Source: a virus. Taken from it: DNA of 20,697 nt. The notes beneath the pieces were generated by a model, which did no database searches, had not been told where the DNA came from, and was given only the letters and a program-made list of their open reading frames with translations. Positions 274 to 20,604 of this stretch are shown piece by piece. Every line of letters starts with the position of its first letter. Within the stretch, counting starts at the first letter, position 1. A program made the translations under genes and the position numbers. The stretch spans positions 1 through 20,697 of IMG/VR virus record IMGVR_UViG_3300005617_000530; one strand, 5' to 3'.

Positions 274-624
274 GTGCCCACAGCGCGCAAGTTCACGTGT
301 GCTTGGTACCGAAGCGAGACCGGCAACGAACCCGCCCGGGAGTGGGTTCGTGGGCTTCCGAGAGAAGCGCGGCACGAAATCGGAGCAGACATGCTGTACG
401 TGCAGGCGTTCTGGCCGACGGGTATGCCGCGCGTCCGATCGCTAGGAGGGGGCCTGCACGAGCTTCGAACCACGGCTGCGTGCGGTGAGTACCGACTGTT
501 TTTCTGCGTCGAAGGCACCACGATTGTGGCGCTGCACGGCTTTCAAAAGAAGACCCAAGCGACGCCGGCCGGTGAGCTCAAGACGGCCAAGGAACGGCTC
601 AAGAAGGTGAAGGGGAAGCGATGA
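274..624 (+). CDS. higB: HigB-type toxin (phage Gp49-like, RelE/ParE superfamily)
   Basis: This 116-residue protein matches the Gp49-like HigB family. These are ribosome-dependent mRNA interferases or gyrase-type toxins of the RelE/ParE fold. Visible family features are the N-terminal strand followed by P-A-R-E-W-V-R-G-L-P (20-29), the central G-G-G-L-H-E-L-R-T strand (58-66), Y-R-L-F-F (73-77), and the C-terminal H-G-F-Q-K-K-T-Q (88-95) that precedes a Lys-rich helix. The length is normal for the family. The start is GTG at 274; an ATG two bases upstream is in the wrong frame. The stop overlaps the start of the antitoxin gene by 4 nt (ATGA), so the two are translationally coupled, toxin first, as in HigBA loci. 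It is plus-strand, against the surrounding minus-strand tail operon, so it is cargo rather than a virion gene. Which RNA or target it cuts cannot be told. Confidence 0.88.
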   Translation: MPTARKFTCAWYRSETGNEPAREWVRGLPREARHEIGADMLYVQAFWPTGMPRVRSLGGGLHELRTTAACGEYRLFFCVEGTTIVALHGFQKKTQATPAGELKTAKERLKKVKGKR

Positions 625-959
625 AAAACAAGCACATTGGCTCAAGCCTTGAATCGCTCTTTGAAGAGCTCGGCGAGCTCGGCGAAGTGCAAACGCTGGC
701 TAGCAAGAAGATCCTTGCCGAGCAGTTCCGCAGGTCCATGGAACTCAAGCACGTCTCTCAGAAGGCTCTTGCGGATCGTATGGCCACGAGCCGAACCGTG
801 ATCAACCGACTCTTGGATCCGAATGACACCGGGGTAACCCTTGCGACCATGGTGAAGGCCTCGGATGCCCTTGGTATGCGACTAGAAGTGCATGTGCGGG
901 ACAAGGGCACTCGTAGCAAGCAAGTCCCCAAGAGGGCTGCGGCCAAGCGGTCACGGTAG
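621..959 (+). CDS. higA: HigA-type antitoxin (XRE-family HTH)
   Basis: This 112-residue protein has an XRE-type helix-turn-helix at about residues 46-66 (S-Q-K-A-L-A-D-R-M then S-R-T-V-I-N-R-L-L), followed by T-G-V-T-L-A-T-M-V-K-A and D-A-L-G-M-R-L-E-V, which are typical of HigA antitoxins. The N-terminal 40 residues (acidic helix E-L-G-E-L-G-E) probably form the toxin-binding part. The C-terminus is strongly basic (K-R-A-A-A-K-R-S-R). The start ATG overlaps the toxin stop as ATGA, and an AGGGG ribosome-binding site lies 5 nt upstream (611-615). It should neutralise the HigB-like toxin and, through the palindrome at 247-266, repress the operon. Family assignment is firm. The operator pairing is inferred. 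Confidence 0.88.
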   Translation: MKNKHIGSSLESLFEELGELGEVQTLASKKILAEQFRRSMELKHVSQKALADRMATSRTVINRLLDPNDTGVTLATMVKASDALGMRLEVHVRDKGTRSKQVPKRAAAKRSR

Positions 960-15072: not shown

Positions 15073-16298
15073 CAGTAGTCATTCAACGGAGAGTCATCGG
15101 TCGCGCTCGCCGGGGGAACCGACTGAGCAATCCATGCGTAAGCCGCGGCGTCACAAAAGTCGTCATAGGTGCCGACCGGAAACGAGAGTAACTCACGCGT
15201 GAAGTCGGGATTAAGATCCGGAGCGTGGTGAATCAGCCCCTGCTCATAGCGCGCTTCAAGGGGCTGGAAACGGGTTAGCTTATCCCGATCGGGCCGAACG
15301 CCTTCCACTGGCAGGTACGTCGTCCTAAGAAGCTCTTGAATCACCGCGGCCTGATACTGAACCTGCTCGATGGCGATCTTTCGTGGATTCCAATCGGCCG
15401 CAGCCCGCTTGATGAATTCGAGCACCTGATAAAACGGCGCCCGAACTCTGCGCGCGTCTAGAATCCACAGTTCACCTTTCGGCGCACGCCCCAGTACCAC
15501 CACCGCCGTGTAGTCCGCGGAGGTCTTTTCGCTAATCGCGAGGTCCACGCCCATCGTGATGGATAGGCCCTCGGGCGGCTCGGTCGTCTGCAGCCACGCT
15601 CGGCTGATGCGAGCGCCACCCGCGGAAACAAACTCCGCGCCAAACTCTCGCCGAGCGACAATGTCTGGCACCGCTGCCCGTGCCACAGCGATCTCACTAG
15701 GATCGATAAAAGGATTCGTTTCGCTCGGGAAAGACCAGCTTTTCCAGCCAGATTCACCGCGCTCACCCCTTTTATAAAGCTCATGAAACCAGCCGTCTTC
15801 GACATTGGGCGTCGAGACGAACAAGGCTCCGCCTTTGCGATCGGCAAGCGCTGGGCGAATCACATTCTCCCAGACCTCGCCGGGTTGGAAATCGGCTTCA
15901 TCGACGACGACAAAGTCAATGCCCTCACCGCGAAGGTTGTCGGCGTTATCGCTCGACTTGAACCAGAACTCACCGCCACCGGGGAATCGAATGCACCTCT
16001 CGGCGACTCGGATCTCAACGTCTGGCACCTGACCTGCCAGCGGGACAACGAGACGCCATGCGATACCAGCCTGCGCATACGTCGGAGCGAGCCACCAGAC
16101 CCTTTGGCCAGCGATGGCTCTAACCACGCCCATTGCCACGCCAAGGCGCGTCTTGCCCCAGCGACGGCCGCAGACCAGAACCTTCCAGCGCGCAGGATGA
16201 TCAGCTACCTCAATCTGTTTCGGGTGAAGGCTCGGTTTGTTCCGAATCCTCACCCGTCTTTTCATCTGCCCATCGGAGATCGATTGCGATAGCCCCAC
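15072..16298 (-). CDS. terL: Terminase large subunit
   Basis: This 408-residue protein has a Walker A motif C-G-R-R-W-G-K-T at residues 43-50, Walker B V-V-V-D-E-A-D (130-136), a motif III-like F-V-S-T-P-N (160-165), and a C-terminal RNase H-like nuclease start T-M-G-V-D-L-A (248-254) with later acidic residues (E311, D379, D380, D383). This is the ATPase-nuclease that cuts concatemers and drives packaging. The assigned start is GTG at 16298; an ATG at 16265 (codon 12) is the main alternative and would shorten the overlap with the small subunit. The family is certain; the start is not. Confidence 0.93.
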   Translation of the reverse strand: MGLSQSISDGQMKRRVRIRNKPSLHPKQIEVADHPARWKVLVCGRRWGKTRLGVAMGVVRAIAGQRVWWLAPTYAQAGIAWRLVVPLAGQVPDVEIRVAERCIRFPGGGEFWFKSSDNADNLRGEGIDFVVVDEADFQPGEVWENVIRPALADRKGGALFVSTPNVEDGWFHELYKRGERGESGWKSWSFPSETNPFIDPSEIAVARAAVPDIVARREFGAEFVSAGGARISRAWLQTTEPPEGLSITMGVDLAISEKTSADYTAVVVLGRAPKGELWILDARRVRAPFYQVLEFIKRAAADWNPRKIAIEQVQYQAAVIQELLRTTYLPVEGVRPDRDKLTRFQPLEARYEQGLIHHAPDLNPDFTRELLSFPVGTYDDFCDAAAYAWIAQSVPPASATDDSPLNDY

Positions 16299-16665
16299 CG
16301 TCTTTACCTGTATGCTCGTGCCGCTCTTTGCGGCCCCACTTCTCCGGGTAGCGACGCTCTAAGCGCCACGCGGCGGCTGTCCACTGCTCCGTTGCAGCCT
16401 TGGCGATCAGCGCAACGTCGCGGATCTCGGACGCTGCGATCGCTTCGTGCACCGCGTCATGGAAGTCTCGGTACGGAGCTTCCTCGTCACTCGTGTCATT
16501 CGCTTGAATGGCCCGCGCGCCACGCCGTAGCCAGTCGTAATACCGATCCTTGGCAATGCCTGCGTAGGCCGCTGCGGTATCGACGTAGTTGCCGGCTCGA
16601 AGGACGCTACAGATCTTCTCAGAGAGTTCCGGGGTTAGTTTGGTCGGTTTGGTGACCCGAGCCAT
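16210..16665 (-). CDS. terS: Terminase small subunit
   Basis: This 151-residue protein (from ATG at 16665) contains an N-terminal helix-turn-helix: L-S-E-K-I-C-S-V-L-R-A-G-N-Y, then T-A-A-A-Y-A-G-I and D-R-Y-Y-D-W-L-R-R-G-A. The A-A-A-x-A-G-I and Y-x-W-L-x-x-G pattern is typical of small terminase subunits that bind the packaging site. The central helix E-I-R-D-V-A-L-I-A-K-A would be the oligomerisation helix. The region after E-K-W-G-R-K-E-R is acidic. The TTG at 16686 is a less likely start. The 3' end overlaps the large subunit by 89 nt from GTG 16298, or 56 nt from ATG 16265. Confidence 0.85.
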   Translation of the reverse strand: MARVTKPTKLTPELSEKICSVLRAGNYVDTAAAYAGIAKDRYYDWLRRGARAIQANDTSDEEAPYRDFHDAVHEAIAASEIRDVALIAKAATEQWTAAAWRLERRYPEKWGRKERHEHTGKDGGAIAIDLRWADEKTGEDSEQTEPSPETD

Positions 16666-17401
16666 GGGATCCGTCTTTGATTGCAACCCAGGCGGCGAAG
16701 TTCATCCAACGCCAGACGCATTCAACGTGCGTAAAGCCTGCGCCTTGGAGAATCTGGTGGTTCCATGCTGCGCGCATCGGAACCAAGACCCCTTCAAGAG
16801 AGGCGCGTTTGCGCTCGATCGCTTCTGGGGAATAGCCCTGGGACTGCTTGTATGCGTGGTATTCCGCGATCAGGGTGTCATCGATCCGAACGGTGGAGCC
16901 GATGACCTTCTCTGTAAACAGAAAGGCGCCGCCCGGCACCGTAGAACGAAAGACATCAGAGACGATACGAGCTCGGTATTCAACCGGCACGAACTGCAAA
17001 GTAAGAATCGCAAGCGTGACACTTGCACGAACGTCCGGGTAGGTATCACGCAAGTCATGCTGCCGGATGCTGACATCTGGCCGATCGGCAAACTGCTCGC
17101 GGGCATAGGCGAGCATCGGTTCAGAGACTTCCGTCCCGACGAACGTGCATCGGCCTTTGAGCGCGTCGGCAATCGGGGCAAGCCCACTACCACGGCTACA
17201 ACCAAGATCCACGATCTCAGTGCCGTCTTGTGCGTACCGAAGGGTTAACCGCGTGACGACGTCTCGGAGCGCTTCGTATTGCGGGATCGAGCGTGCAAGC
17301 ATGTCATCGAAACAGCTTGCAACGGCATGGTCAAACGACCACCGACCGCTAGGCTGATGCTCGAGACTGTCGTCCGAAGGTTCGTCGGTACTCGGCTGCA
17401 T
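16619..17401 (-). CDS. cmoA: CmoA-like carboxy-SAM (Cx-SAM) synthase
   Basis: From ATG at 17401 this protein has 260 residues and aligns along its whole length with E. coli CmoA, which makes carboxy-S-adenosyl-L-methionine from SAM and prephenate. Shared segments, by my recall of E. coli CmoA, are W-S-F-D-H-A-V-A near 21-28, R-S-I-P-Q-Y (37-42), the SAM motif D-L-G-C-S (65-69), T-L-Q-F (134-137), V-P-G-G-A (155-159) followed by E-K, G-Y-S-x-x-x-I-x-x-K-R (189-199) and N-F-A-A-W-V-A-I-K. Arg199 matches CmoA Arg199, which binds the Cx-SAM carboxylate. Differences are CmoA D89/N90 to E91/V92 and N132 to I132. The end overlaps the small terminase and the start lies inside the asparagine-synthetase-like gene. 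No CmoB partner is present. The upstream TTG at 17470 is a less likely start. Family assignment is strong; product not proven. Confidence 0.85.
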   Translation of the reverse strand: MQPSTDEPSDDSLEHQPSGRWSFDHAVASCFDDMLARSIPQYEALRDVVTRLTLRYAQDGTEIVDLGCSRGSGLAPIADALKGRCTFVGTEVSEPMLAYAREQFADRPDVSIRQHDLRDTYPDVRASVTLAILTLQFVPVEYRARIVSDVFRSTVPGGAFLFTEKVIGSTVRIDDTLIAEYHAYKQSQGYSPEAIERKRASLEGVLVPMRAAWNHQILQGAGFTHVECVWRWMNFAAWVAIKDGSHGSGHQTDQTNPGTL

Positions 17402-18758
17402 AGAAACTCTGGGGGCTTGCAAGCCTGGACTCAATGACCGCTTTGAGGCCCATGCCGTCCTGGAAGGCAACCTTAGGGCGCCGCGTCACGATAGCGGGAA
17501 GTAGTCCCGCCATCGCATCCTGAATGACCGCCTTGGGGCGCGCCTTGCCATCCTGAACAACCCGCTGGGGGAGCGAAAGCGCGAACTCAACCAAGGGCGG
17601 GTGAAGAAACGGCAGGCGGCACTCTACGGAGTGGGCCATAAAGACTTTGTTGCACCGGGGGAAGTTCTTGCGGGCTTGGGTCAGAAACAGGTTCTTGCGG
17701 TAGGTGTGCCAGTCCTGCGTTTTGAGCGCGTGGTAGGCAAAGCCGTAGCTGCCCCAGAGTTCATCCGAACCTTCCCCGCTAAACGTCACCTTGAAGCCGT
17801 CGCTATGCATGGCCTGGGCAAGCCGTAGACAAGCCCAGCCGATCTCGACCTGTGCCTTGTAGGGCTGCTCGATGACCCGCACGACCTTGGCCAGGTCATC
17901 GGCTGATGGCGGCGGGACGCGAATTTCGCGTAACTCGATCCGAAGCGCAGCAGCAACCTCTCGAGCCGCCCGGAGGTCTTTGGACTTGCGATCCAGAACG
18001 GCCGTGTAGGCTACAAGCCCGGGACGCTCTTGGGCTAGGAAGTAGGCCACCGCGGCCGAATCAATCCCGCCGGATAGTAGGGTACAGACCGGGACGTCGC
18101 TAATCGCTCGCTCTCTAGACCCTCGTTCAATCAAGCCACGTAGGGAGGCCCGCGCGGCTTCGGGTGTCATCGGAACGGGACGGGCAGGGGGATCGTACCA
18201 ACGAGCCTTCCGAATGCCCTTGGCAGAGACTTCTAGGCGCTCACCCGGTCCTACATCCGTGATCGCTGCGGGCTGGACTCGTAGGGCAAGCAGTGCCTTG
18301 AGTTCGGACGCAAACACAAACGGCTTGGTGGGCGCATAGTGCAGCGGGACTTCACCAAAACGATCGCGTGCTAGGTGCAGCGTCTTGCCGTCATTCGTCC
18401 AGGCAAGGGCAAACATCCCATTGAGCCTGGCCAACGCAGCAGGGCCCCACGTCTGGAGCGCGGCGGCTACGACTTCGGTGTCACCGGTCGTAGTGAAGGT
18501 TTTGCCAAGCGTCTGGAGTTGGGCTCGGACGGCTTTGTAATTCCAGATCTCTCCGTTGAATGCGAGAGCAACCTTGCCGTAGTGAAACGGCTGATTGCTG
18601 CGAGGATCGAGGTCTAGGATGGCCAGGCGCGTATGGCCTAGTACGACGTCACCGGCCTGGAAGATGGATTGTTGATCCGGGCCACGGTGAATCAGTGCGG
18701 CGATTCCACGTTCGATGGTAGTCGGCTGGATCCATAGACCCCCGACTAGGCCGCACAT
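17349..18758 (-). CDS. Asparagine-synthetase-like glutamine-dependent amidotransferase
   Basis: This 469-residue protein has the N-terminal nucleophile Cys2 (M-C-G-L-V-G-G), then H-R-G-P-D (24-28), H-T-R-L-A-I-L-D (42-49), F-N-G-E-I-W-N-Y (67-74) and G-D-T-E-V (92-96), the glutaminase pocket of class II amidotransferases. The synthetase half has the PP-loop S-G-G-I-D-S (229-234), S-G-E-G-S-D-E (327-333) and the Lys of R-R-P-K-V-A-F-Q-D-G (426-435), which aligns with catalytic K449 of E. coli AsnB. The E. coli AsnB aspartate segment T-x-R-A-S-T-P (by recall) is not there; its place reads A-Q-V-E-I-G-W-A (302-309). So ATP-activated carboxylate amidation is expected, but on another substrate. 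It overlaps the C5-methyltransferase stop by 13 nt and the CmoA-like start by 53 nt. Proposed substrate: the carboxymethyl group on DNA cytosine. Confidence 0.85.
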   Translation of the reverse strand: MCGLVGGLWIQPTTIERGIAALIHRGPDQQSIFQAGDVVLGHTRLAILDLDPRSNQPFHYGKVALAFNGEIWNYKAVRAQLQTLGKTFTTTGDTEVVAAALQTWGPAALARLNGMFALAWTNDGKTLHLARDRFGEVPLHYAPTKPFVFASELKALLALRVQPAAITDVGPGERLEVSAKGIRKARWYDPPARPVPMTPEAARASLRGLIERGSRERAISDVPVCTLLSGGIDSAAVAYFLAQERPGLVAYTAVLDRKSKDLRAAREVAAALRIELREIRVPPPSADDLAKVVRVIEQPYKAQVEIGWACLRLAQAMHSDGFKVTFSGEGSDELWGSYGFAYHALKTQDWHTYRKNLFLTQARKNFPRCNKVFMAHSVECRLPFLHPPLVEFALSLPQRVVQDGKARPKAVIQDAMAGLLPAIVTRRPKVAFQDGMGLKAVIESRLASPQSFYAAEYRRTFGRQSRASA

Positions 18759-20053
18759 GAGAGCTTGCGAAGAATCTGGTCACGAACCGTGGAAGCGATT
18801 GCCGCCATCATGACCGGGGGAACGGAACGACCACAGCGCTCCCATTGCTGAGCGTAGGTGCCTTTGAGCACAAAGTCATCCGGGAATGAACAGATCCGCT
18901 TGAGTTCCGCGATTGAGAACTTACGCCGCTCCGTCGGGTGCGTGACTGATGCAACGGACGCATCCCCGCCACGCTGAGTGATTGTCGGGCACGGCGCGTT
19001 CGGATCCGGGCGCACGAGCTGAAAGTATTTCTCGCTCTGCTCGCCTTGCTTGAGCTTGTCCCATTCGGCACCGACCGCATAGCGCGAGATATCTGCCTCA
19101 GGCTCGATCACGAGAGAGATCTCAGAATTCGTGTGACGCCGGCCGTGCGTAAGCACGGTGGGAGCAGGCTCGTCGAGTGATCGCGTTTTCTTGTGCGTTG
19201 CGACGCTCACGGCCCGGCTCTGAGCCTGCACATGAAAACGCATATTTGAGCCACCACCCGCGGAACGGATCGTACACATGGGCTCGTTCGCAACATCGAA
19301 AACACGGGTACCCTCGAAACCCCTAGCGTCGTGTGTCACGGCAGTAATCCACGGCAACGCATCGCGTACGCTGTATCGATAGGGCAGCGGGCTTGGGTGT
19401 GCGGGCGCTAGACCGAGATCATTGCGCACGCCGACAAAGATCAATCGCTGTCGTGCCTGCGGAACACCGAGCCACTGGGCATCAAGAAGCTGGGCGGCTA
19501 CGCGATACCCGCATGCCTTGAGCGCTGCCAGAATCTCCTTGAAGTAGCCCTTGGCCGTGCCCTTCACGAGACCCGAGACGTTCTCGGCTACGAAGGTTTT
19601 CGGCTGAAGACCTTTGAGTAGGCGCGCGTACTCGAAGAACAGATCATCAACGCGTTGGGCCGTATCCGAGTAGGCCTTGACCTTGCCCCAGGCTTCTTCA
19701 CGCTTACCGGCCGTCGAGAAGGACGCACACGGCGGGGAGCCATCGAGCAAGTCAATCTCACCGACCTTGAGCTTGGTAGCCTTGAGAATGTCCTCGGGCT
19801 GGATCTTTCGGATATCCCGCGGATCAAGAATCGTGCTTTCGAAGTTCGCTTGGTAGGTCTCACGCGCTGCGGGGATAAACTCATTCGCCCAGACCACCTT
19901 GAAGCCGGCCATGCGGTAGCCAAGGCAAGACCCGCCGCCACCAGAGAACGTGCTTACGACCTTGAAACCGTTCCACGGCAGGGCCCGGATCTCGGCCATG
20001 CTCGGCACGCGGTAAGGCGGCTTCGCTGGTGCCTGCTTACGCTTTACGACCAT
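18746..20053 (-). CDS. DNA cytosine-C5 methyltransferase with Arg in motif X (predicted carboxymethyltransferase)
   Basis: This 435-residue protein has the motifs of C5-cytosine methyltransferases in order: motif I S-T-F-S-G-G-G-G (34-41), a motif II acidic residue in A-N-E-F (56-59), motif IV S-P-P-C-A-S-F-S (106-113, Cys109 the nucleophile), motif VI E-N-V (157-159), motif VIII Q-A-R-Q-R-L-I-F (199-206), then a target-recognition stretch and F-P-D-D-F near the end. Motif X reads C-G-R-S-V-P-P (407-413): Arg409 (codon CGT at 18829-18827) replaces the near-invariant Asn of G-N-S/A-V-P-P. Asn-to-Lys at this position in M.MpeI (N374K, by recall) lets the enzyme take Cx-SAM. With a CmoA-like gene two places downstream, carboxymethylation of cytosine is likely. 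Recognition sequence unknown. ATG at 20053 overlaps the ParB-like stop by 10 nt. Confidence 0.93.
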   Translation of the reverse strand: MVVKRKQAPAKPPYRVPSMAEIRALPWNGFKVVSTFSGGGGSCLGYRMAGFKVVWANEFIPAARETYQANFESTILDPRDIRKIQPEDILKATKLKVGEIDLLDGSPPCASFSTAGKREEAWGKVKAYSDTAQRVDDLFFEYARLLKGLQPKTFVAENVSGLVKGTAKGYFKEILAALKACGYRVAAQLLDAQWLGVPQARQRLIFVGVRNDLGLAPAHPSPLPYRYSVRDALPWITAVTHDARGFEGTRVFDVANEPMCTIRSAGGGSNMRFHVQAQSRAVSVATHKKTRSLDEPAPTVLTHGRRHTNSEISLVIEPEADISRYAVGAEWDKLKQGEQSEKYFQLVRPDPNAPCPTITQRGGDASVASVTHPTERRKFSIAELKRICSFPDDFVLKGTYAQQWERCGRSVPPVMMAAIASTVRDQILRKLSCAA

Positions 20054-20604
20054 TCATACCCGCACTTGGGGCACTTGTGCTCGGTCTCGATCGACTCATC
20101 GAAGGACTTGAACCCTTCCGGCGCGATCGCTTCTGCTGTCGTGTTGAGCAACGCATCAATCTCGGTATCGTGCCAACCGGCTACGAGCGCGACGTCCGTG
20201 CCCTGCTGTCGTAGGTCACCGAGTAGCGCAATGAGCTGCTCGTTGTCCCAAGAGCCAAGCTCGTTCAAGCGATTGTCCGCAAGCGCGAGCAGGTGCGCAT
20301 CGGCTGGATCCAGGTCCAGGAACCGTACCGGCACGCGAGTCATCCCGAGCATCTCGGCAGCCTTGAGCCGCGTGTGCCCCGCGATCACTTCGCCGTCTTC
20401 ACGACGAGCAAGGATCGGCGCAGCAAACCCGAAGCGCTTGATGCTCTCGACTACCCGCTGAATATGCGTGTCATCGTTGCGCCGCGGGTTGCGATCCCAC
20501 GGCTTGAGCGCGGTAATCTCCACCCATTCCGCCGCAAGCTCTTTTTTAGAGGGTACGGAATCTCTGGATTCCTTCGAAGCCTTGTCGATTTTGCTAGATT
20601 TCAC
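20044..20604 (-). CDS. ParB/Srx-fold nuclease-domain protein with C-terminal zinc-ribbon-like tail
   Basis: This 186-residue protein has the ParB N-terminal domain. After a basic N-terminus (residues 1-25), K-P-W-D-R-N-P-R-R-N-D (34-44) opens the fold, then I-x-R-V-V-E-S-I-K-R-F-G-F (48-60), the conserved G-E-V-I-A-G-H-T-R-L (71-80) and A-L-A-D-N-R-L-N-E-L (107-116). The end is H-K-C-P-K-C-G-Y-E-W-S (176-186): one Cys pair and a His, so at most half a zinc site. Phage ParB/Srx-fold proteins are often encoded beside or fused to DNA methylases. Here it leads the hypermodification operon, and its stop overlaps the methyltransferase start by 10 nt. Whether it is an NTPase switch, nuclease or DNA-binding partner is not visible. 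The start is GTG at 20604 with no clear ribosome-binding site. Beyond it, 20605-20697 holds a weak imperfect hairpin and no gene I can recognise. Confidence 0.82.
   Translation of the reverse strand: MKSSKIDKASKESRDSVPSKKELAAEWVEITALKPWDRNPRRNDDTHIQRVVESIKRFGFAAPILARREDGEVIAGHTRLKAAEMLGMTRVPVRFLDLDPADAHLLALADNRLNELGSWDNEQLIALLGDLRQQGTDVALVAGWHDTEIDALLNTTAEAIAPEGFKSFDESIETEHKCPKCGYEWS

Follow-up and report, generated by a model that had tools for sequence, protein, structure and literature searches.

A candidate DNA-hypermodification operon in a phage contig

The IMG/VR virus record IMGVR_UViG_3300005617_000530, a virus contig that was analyzed over its entire length of 20,697 bases (hereafter, the window), carries on the minus strand four overlapping genes, the predicted products of which are a ParB/Srx-like protein, a DNA cytosine C5-methyltransferase (CmoX), an amidotransferase with the asparagine synthetase (AsnB) fold, and a homologue of CmoA, a putative synthase of carboxy-S-adenosylmethionine (Cx-SAM). 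The gene overlaps of 10, 13 and 53 nucleotides (nt) that had been noted in an initial examination of the sequence alone (hereafter, the sequence-only reading) were reproduced exactly. Domains were assigned by Pfam and NCBIfam profile searches (aa, amino acids; GATase, glutamine amidotransferase).

20044..20604, minus strand: ParB/Srx-like protein, 186 aa; ParB_N 2.5e-8 (Pfam)
18746..20053, minus strand: CmoX, predicted DNA cytosine C5-carboxymethyltransferase, 435 aa; DNA_methylase 1.4e-57; best PDB match 8YF3
17349..18758, minus strand: GATase-type CmoY, predicted glutamine-dependent amidotransferase of the AsnB fold, 469 aa; GATase_6 1.9e-37, Asn_synthase 8.9e-45
16619..17401, minus strand: CmoA-like putative Cx-SAM synthase, 260 aa from ATG; TIGR00740 2.2e-45
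19727..19729, minus strand: codon of the CmoX catalytic Cys109 (SpCmoX Cys98); Cys in 73/73 aligned homologues
18827..18829, minus strand: codon of CmoX Arg409 (SpCmoX Arg350); Arg in 72/72
18753..18755, minus strand: codon of amidotransferase Cys2, the class II glutaminase nucleophile; 65/65
17844..17858, minus strand: K301-A-Q303-V-E305 of the amidotransferase, in place of AsnB T-T-x-R; K in 75/75 and E in 75/75 members of the phage family

For the CmoA-like gene, an alternative TTG start at 17470 is possible, yielding a protein of 283 aa.

A system of the same kind has been described in the Synechococcus phage S-B43 (PMC12783734; Nat Commun, 7 Dec 2025). In that phage, SpCmoA produces Cx-SAM; SpCmoX, which in its wild-type form takes Cx-SAM only and contacts the Cx-SAM carboxylate through Arg350 (structure 8YF3), forms 5-carboxymethylcytosine (5cxmC) at GC motifs; and SpCmoY joins glycine to 5cxmC in an ATP-dependent reaction, the glycine amide being present in the phage DNA. 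The same study shows that 5cxmC blocks HhaI cutting in vitro and that, in E. coli, the host CmoA can supply CmoX. It reports 5,615 CmoX candidates, many of them linked to CmoA, ligases and ParBc proteins, and found no adenine-directed candidates. For the second-largest ligase cluster (A0A7T0Q3R0), which contains a glutamine-hydrolyzing domain, ammonia was suggested as the substrate; a soluble enzyme of this cluster was never obtained. A literature text search, with most subscription journals outside its range, returned this paper alone on CmoX, CmoY, 5cxmC or carbamoylmethylcytosine; within that range, no paper was found to demonstrate 5-carbamoylmethylcytosine as a base.

The window is a further member of the predicted glutamine-amidase branch of this published CmoA-CmoX-CmoY system, and we consider it highly probable that the four genes are a phage DNA-hypermodification operon of that kind and branch. 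The route put forward in the sequence-only reading, from Cx-SAM through 5cxmC to an amide, agrees with the S-B43 biochemistry up to the last nitrogen donor but, as a system, had already been published. It is supported by the demonstrated reactions of the homologous S-B43 enzymes and by the sequence tests described below.

The motif-X arginine and its coupling to CmoA

The best PDB match of the window CmoX is SpCmoX (8YF3, 1.4e-71). The catalytic motif S106-P107-P108-C109 (SPPC) is present, and Cys109 and Arg409 align with Cys98 and Arg350, respectively. Both residues are invariant in the CmoX proteins of contigs selected via the AsnB-like gene (counts as listed above). Thus, the Asn-to-Arg change in motif X pointed out in the sequence-only reading is real: ordinary C5-methyltransferases carry Asn in this position (N304 in HhaI), as do four control phage enzymes (L091-L094), in contrast to the Arg of SpCmoX and of the PaBG, TurkishDelight and Mcat8 proteins. 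Replacement of the motif-X Asn with a basic residue in the engineered M.MpeI N374K causes a C5-methyltransferase to use Cx-SAM, producing 5cxmC as an unnatural base (PMC12783734). The target-recognition region of the window CmoX (about residues 232-345) is unalignable with that of SpCmoX, so recognition of the GC motif cannot be assumed. The AlphaFold model of CmoX (mean pLDDT, the predicted local distance difference test, of 65, and below 50 in the target-recognition region, 238-369) was dropped from the fold search on account of its low confidence, the sequence match to 8YF3 being sufficient.

The link between the motif-X residue and CmoA was assessed in methyltransferase loci that were fetched with a CmoX alignment, independently of any ligase, and scored for the residue and the neighboring genes. 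Among the 77 readable loci, 60 combine Arg with CmoA, 9 have Arg without CmoA, 8 have Asn without CmoA, and none combines Asn with CmoA (Fisher test, 1.2e-6, an optimistic value because the rows are related). In a tree built with the motif-X column left out, Asn rows are interspersed with Arg rows. The best tree has 6 changes between the two states, at least 2 of which are forced by supported branches, and CmoA is missing at every Asn row; because no more than 2 independent pairs have supported branches behind them, a sign test could not reach significance. The coupling of Arg to CmoA is strong, although not absolute. A ligase of the GATase type is present in 9 of these loci and one of the CmoY type in 18, with none in the rest and none beside an Asn-type methyltransferase. 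In the window, the CmoA gene (16619-17401) lies two genes downstream of CmoX.

The CmoA-like protein matches TIGR00740 with 155.2 bits across model positions 13-239 of 239, and its best PDB match is E. coli CmoA (EcCmoA; 4GEK, 7.1e-31), with homology extending over the full length. Arg199 of EcCmoA, which contacts the carboxylate of Cx-SAM (PMC4482062), is retained as Arg199 of the 260-aa window protein; this supports, without proving, the predicted Cx-SAM synthase activity. Several classes of phage CmoA can be distinguished; the window protein is of a host-like type ('KR..LEGVLVP') and the S-B43 protein of another ('KE..LRDMLKP'). There is no CmoB-like gene among the annotated open reading frames of the window, which were not searched with a model aimed at CmoB.

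A glutamine amidotransferase in the ligase position

The amidotransferase combines an entire N-terminal glutaminase domain, modeled at high confidence, with a synthetase domain (AlphaFold pLDDT of 92; best fold match E. coli AsnB 1CT9, with a template modeling score, TM, of 0.86). Cys2, Arg44, Asn68, Gly69, Asp93 and the SGGxDS loop are all invariant across the phage family. The loss of the AsnB aspartate segment claimed in the sequence-only reading was confirmed. The Thr-Thr-x-Arg residues, which are among the residues implicated in the binding of aspartate and ATP by asparagine synthetases (PMC5775275), are replaced by A302-Q303-V304-E305, with K301 in front and with E305 in the position of an Arg in E. 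coli AsnB; the protein ends at residue 469, compared to 553 in AsnB. Counterparts of K301 and E305 are found in SpCmoY (K98, E102), in PaBG CmoY and in 16 of the 17 readable CmoY relatives. The pair does not occur together in any of the 80 cellular controls, generic AsnB-like proteins with 26-37% identity, among the matches listed, that were obtained by scanning genome contigs with the amidotransferase alignment. This pattern suggests that the Lys/Glu pair reflects the use of 5cxmC as a common substrate, and the glutaminase domain the use of a different nitrogen donor.

In a sample of 76 IMG/VR loci chosen by the amidotransferase alone, CmoX and CmoA are both adjacent on the same strand in 59, and in 16 more, one of the two is present and the contig end cuts the side of the other gene, so that CmoX and/or CmoA lies beside the amidotransferase gene in 75 of the 76 loci; L008 is the one true exception. 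The sample is redundant, collapsing into 15 clusters at 90% identity (TurkishDelight included), 11 of which have the complete set. Clustering of CmoA, the motif-X methyltransferase and the AsnB-like gene, for which the sequence-only reading had proposed a search of phage genomes, is therefore conserved in dozens of contigs, and because the same gene set is kept in so many of them, the four-gene grouping is far beyond chance. A viral scan with CmoA alone yielded a single locus, the patterns used being too specific.

Two main gene orders were observed, ParB-CmoX-AsnB-CmoA (in the window, TurkishDelight and others) and CmoA-AsnB-CmoX (cyanophage-like). Three loci, L012, L020 and L031, have the S-B43 order and encode CmoA and CmoX that are, respectively, 86-88% and 91-94% identical to the S-B43 enzymes, and yet the CmoY slot holds a GATase-type amidotransferase, about 49% identical to that of the window. 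No other evidence speaks as strongly for 5cxmC as the substrate of the amidotransferase as this natural ligase swap. Together with the Lys/Glu signature, the exchange of ligases next to nearly identical CmoA and CmoX genes makes the prediction of amidation directly testable. The window amidotransferase, which is 54-59% identical to the closest relatives found, is a further, fairly diverged candidate for the glutamine branch that so far lacks a soluble enzyme.

A distant AsnB-like gene is located in a 7-deazaguanine DNA-modification cluster (queC, Tgt-like, queE, GTP cyclohydrolase) of Achromobacter phage Motura (L095:7395-13164). Its product is without the Lys/Glu pair, in an apparent further use of AsnB-type amidotransferases in DNA modification.

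Predicted pathway and alternative explanations

In the pathway that we propose, the CmoA-like protein would convert S-adenosylmethionine (SAM) and host prephenate to Cx-SAM, as shown for its homologues. CmoX would then flip out the target cytosine, with Cys109 attacking C6 and Arg409 holding the carboxylate of Cx-SAM, and transfer the carboxymethyl group to C5. By analogy with SpCmoX, there are strong grounds to expect that the window enzyme turns cytosine into 5cxmC. The amidotransferase would hydrolyze glutamine at Cys2, activate the 5cxmC carboxyl in DNA with ATP in the synthetase domain, and pass ammonia through the protein to give a neutral primary amide, 5-carbamoylmethylcytosine. The prediction that 5cxmC is amidated with ATP and glutamine-derived ammonia draws on the domains present in the enzyme, on its Lys/Glu signature and on the natural exchange of ligases. 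Taken as a whole, it is likely that the phage DNA bears 5-carbamoylmethylcytosine, made through post-replicative carboxymethyl transfer and glutamine-dependent amidation. The operon most likely benefits the phage by making its DNA resistant to host restriction enzymes, and the amide, too, would be expected to provide such protection. If this prediction is correct, these phages turn the charged 5cxmC into a neutral amide by means of a DNA-amidating enzyme, extending the carboxylate-handle chemistry on DNA.

Several observations weigh against this interpretation. The score of the window CmoA, 155.2 bits, is below the TIGR00740 equivalog cut-off of 193.3, so this protein is to be classified as a homologue and not as an equivalog of the tRNA-pathway CmoA; two other phage CmoAs that were scored likewise fall under the cut-off. 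The proven SpCmoA has Glu in the column of EcCmoA Arg199, and for this reason, we rejected Arg199 as a decisive marker of Cx-SAM synthesis. The biochemistry to date comes from homologues outside the GATase branch, and Lys429 of the synthetase domain is replaced by His in CmoY, so that the amidation step differs to some extent in mechanism from the proven CmoY step. With regard to the coupling, CmoA could lie beyond the ends of those Asn-type contigs that are short or cut; for the Asn-type loci L208, L231, L235 and L239, the downstream stretch is close to 5 kb. Conversely, nine Arg-type loci lack CmoA in the stretch read. Finally, the 115-kb contig L008 encodes the amidotransferase but no CmoX, CmoA or C5-methyltransferase; either the contig is incomplete or the carboxyl group is made by another route.

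Some details of these exceptional loci were recorded. The Arg-type CmoX genes with no recognized CmoA nearby are those of L204, L205, L211, L242, L249, L251, L252, L254 and L255, and L205 has a CmoY-type ligase nonetheless; by analogy with the E. coli experiments, such phages may borrow the host CmoA. In L008 (7989-11245), the amidotransferase (56% identical) retains the K/Q/E residues, its neighbor is a radical SAM protein, and the contig also encodes a PCNA-like clamp.

The alternatives differ in the step at which they depart from the predicted pathway. In one of them, the methyltransferase, which has the ordinary C5-methyltransferase fold, makes plain 5-methylcytosine from SAM, with CmoA, a tRNA-pathway enzyme in bacteria, and the amidotransferase serving elsewhere, for example, in wobble modification of host tRNA. 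Such an arrangement would leave unexplained the presence of Arg409 instead of Asn, a state that is tied to CmoA across phages with no case of Asn next to CmoA, as well as the CmoX-ligase-CmoA adjacency in 59 contigs and the strict Cx-SAM dependence of SpCmoX (PMC12783734). We regard it as very improbable; specifically, the Arg/CmoA coupling led us to reject both the 5-methylcytosine and the tRNA-modification readings.

If the first two steps are retained, the AsnB-like enzyme could still join another amine, such as an amino acid or a small amine, to 5cxmC, with the glutaminase domain being vestigial or supplying ammonia in a side reaction only. The proven glycine ligase SpCmoY does share the Lys/Glu pair with the amidotransferase. 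However, whereas a domain that had become vestigial should decay, no active-site residue of the glutaminase varies within the family, and the N-terminal domain is wholly kept and modeled with high confidence; moreover, this family takes the place of CmoY at the same locus and is not an addition to it. Hence, this possibility appears unlikely. In another variant, the amide would be an intermediate from which a second ATP yields the nitrile 5-cyanomethylcytosine, or else a hydroxamate-like compound would be the product. This variant draws on the chemical versatility of AsnB-like enzymes, given that the fold search also matched the hydroxyamidotransferase TsnB9 and beta-lactam synthetase, and on the mention of asparagine synthetase B in a 2026 preprint about peptides that contain nitriles. 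No sequence feature points to a nitrile or a hydroxamate, and the simple amide requires no additional step, which makes these products highly doubtful. Glutamine-dependent formation of the primary amide thus remains the preferred interpretation.

The ParB-like protein and the genomic context

The first gene of the operon encodes a ParB-like protein with a C-terminal CPKCGYEWS knuckle. ParB-like genes with the C-terminal motif C-P-x-C-(G/E)-Y-x-(W/F) also precede CmoX in TurkishDelight, Mcat8, L010, L057, L063 and L073, and ParBc proteins adjoining CmoX have been reported previously (PMC12783734). The ParB-like proteins encoded beside CmoX have in common a C-terminal acidic stretch. Possibly, this stretch or the motif makes contact with CmoX or with DNA, and the protein, a conserved accessory, perhaps helps CmoX on DNA.

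The four genes are situated immediately upstream of the terminase genes. The terminase small subunit gene (16210-16665) continues the operon, its ATG (at 16665) overlapping the CmoA gene by 47 nt, and is followed by genes for the large subunit (TerL), portal, capsid, sheath and tape-measure proteins, indicating a contractile-tailed phage. TerL has weak matches (27-40% identity among the matches listed), and the window capsid protein has no match in phage records. The operon starts 93 bases from the right end of the record, which is probably a fragment of a phage genome. At the left end, on the opposite strand, are a HigB-like gene of the Gp49 family (274-624, plus strand; 1.8e-20) and a gene with a weak HTH_37 match (621-959, plus strand), probably a toxin-antitoxin pair.

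Partial sets were found in other phages. In Moraxella phage Mcat8 (L090:15286-17486), an unannotated ParB-CmoX-CmoA array lies directly upstream of the terminase genes, as in the window, with no adjoining ligase. Alcaligenes phage Afa-NA1 (PV550095, a 78-kb record; L004/L096) encodes a CmoA homologue (62470-63222 of the record; 41% identical); the record contains no C5-cytosine methyltransferase but has two D12-class N6-adenine methyltransferases. A Cx-SAM user other than CmoX is possible in this phage. In IMGVR_UViG_3300033067_001205 (L006:2521-8741), CmoA is 49% identical to that of the window and is preceded by three tandem ParB-like genes, the third of which (517 aa) encodes a weak methyltransferase-like domain; no CmoX was found in this 36.5-kb contig.

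Comparison with known systems

Like the window, S-B43 has a CmoA homologue, a C5-carboxymethyltransferase with SPPC and the motif-X Arg, and an adjacent AMP-forming ligase of the asparagine synthetase family, with no CmoB seen. The gene orders differ, ParB-CmoX-ligase-CmoA in the window and CmoA-ligase-CmoX in S-B43, and so do the ligases: S-B43 CmoY is a 271-aa protein without a glutaminase domain that uses glycine, whereas the window encodes a 469-aa two-domain amidotransferase. Streptomyces phage TurkishDelight carries the four genes of the window in the identical order (genes 122-125); CmoX and the amidotransferase are 58% and 54% identical, respectively, but its CmoA belongs to a different class, with 28% identity.

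The amidotransferase shares with E. coli AsnB (1CT9) the two-domain fold, the glutaminase residues, the SGGxDS pyrophosphate loop, GEGSDE and Lys429, and differs in having A-Q-V-E and an extra Lys for T-T-x-R and some 80 fewer C-terminal residues. Engineered M.MpeI N374K resembles the window CmoX in the basic residue that replaces the motif-X Asn; the window enzyme, however, is natural, carries Arg, and is accompanied by its own putative Cx-SAM synthase and a follow-on amidotransferase. Mom of phage Mu makes N6-carbamoylmethyladenine, so that in this phage, too, a base bears a carbamoylmethyl group; the base, however, is adenine, and both the enzyme and the chemistry differ from those predicted for the window.

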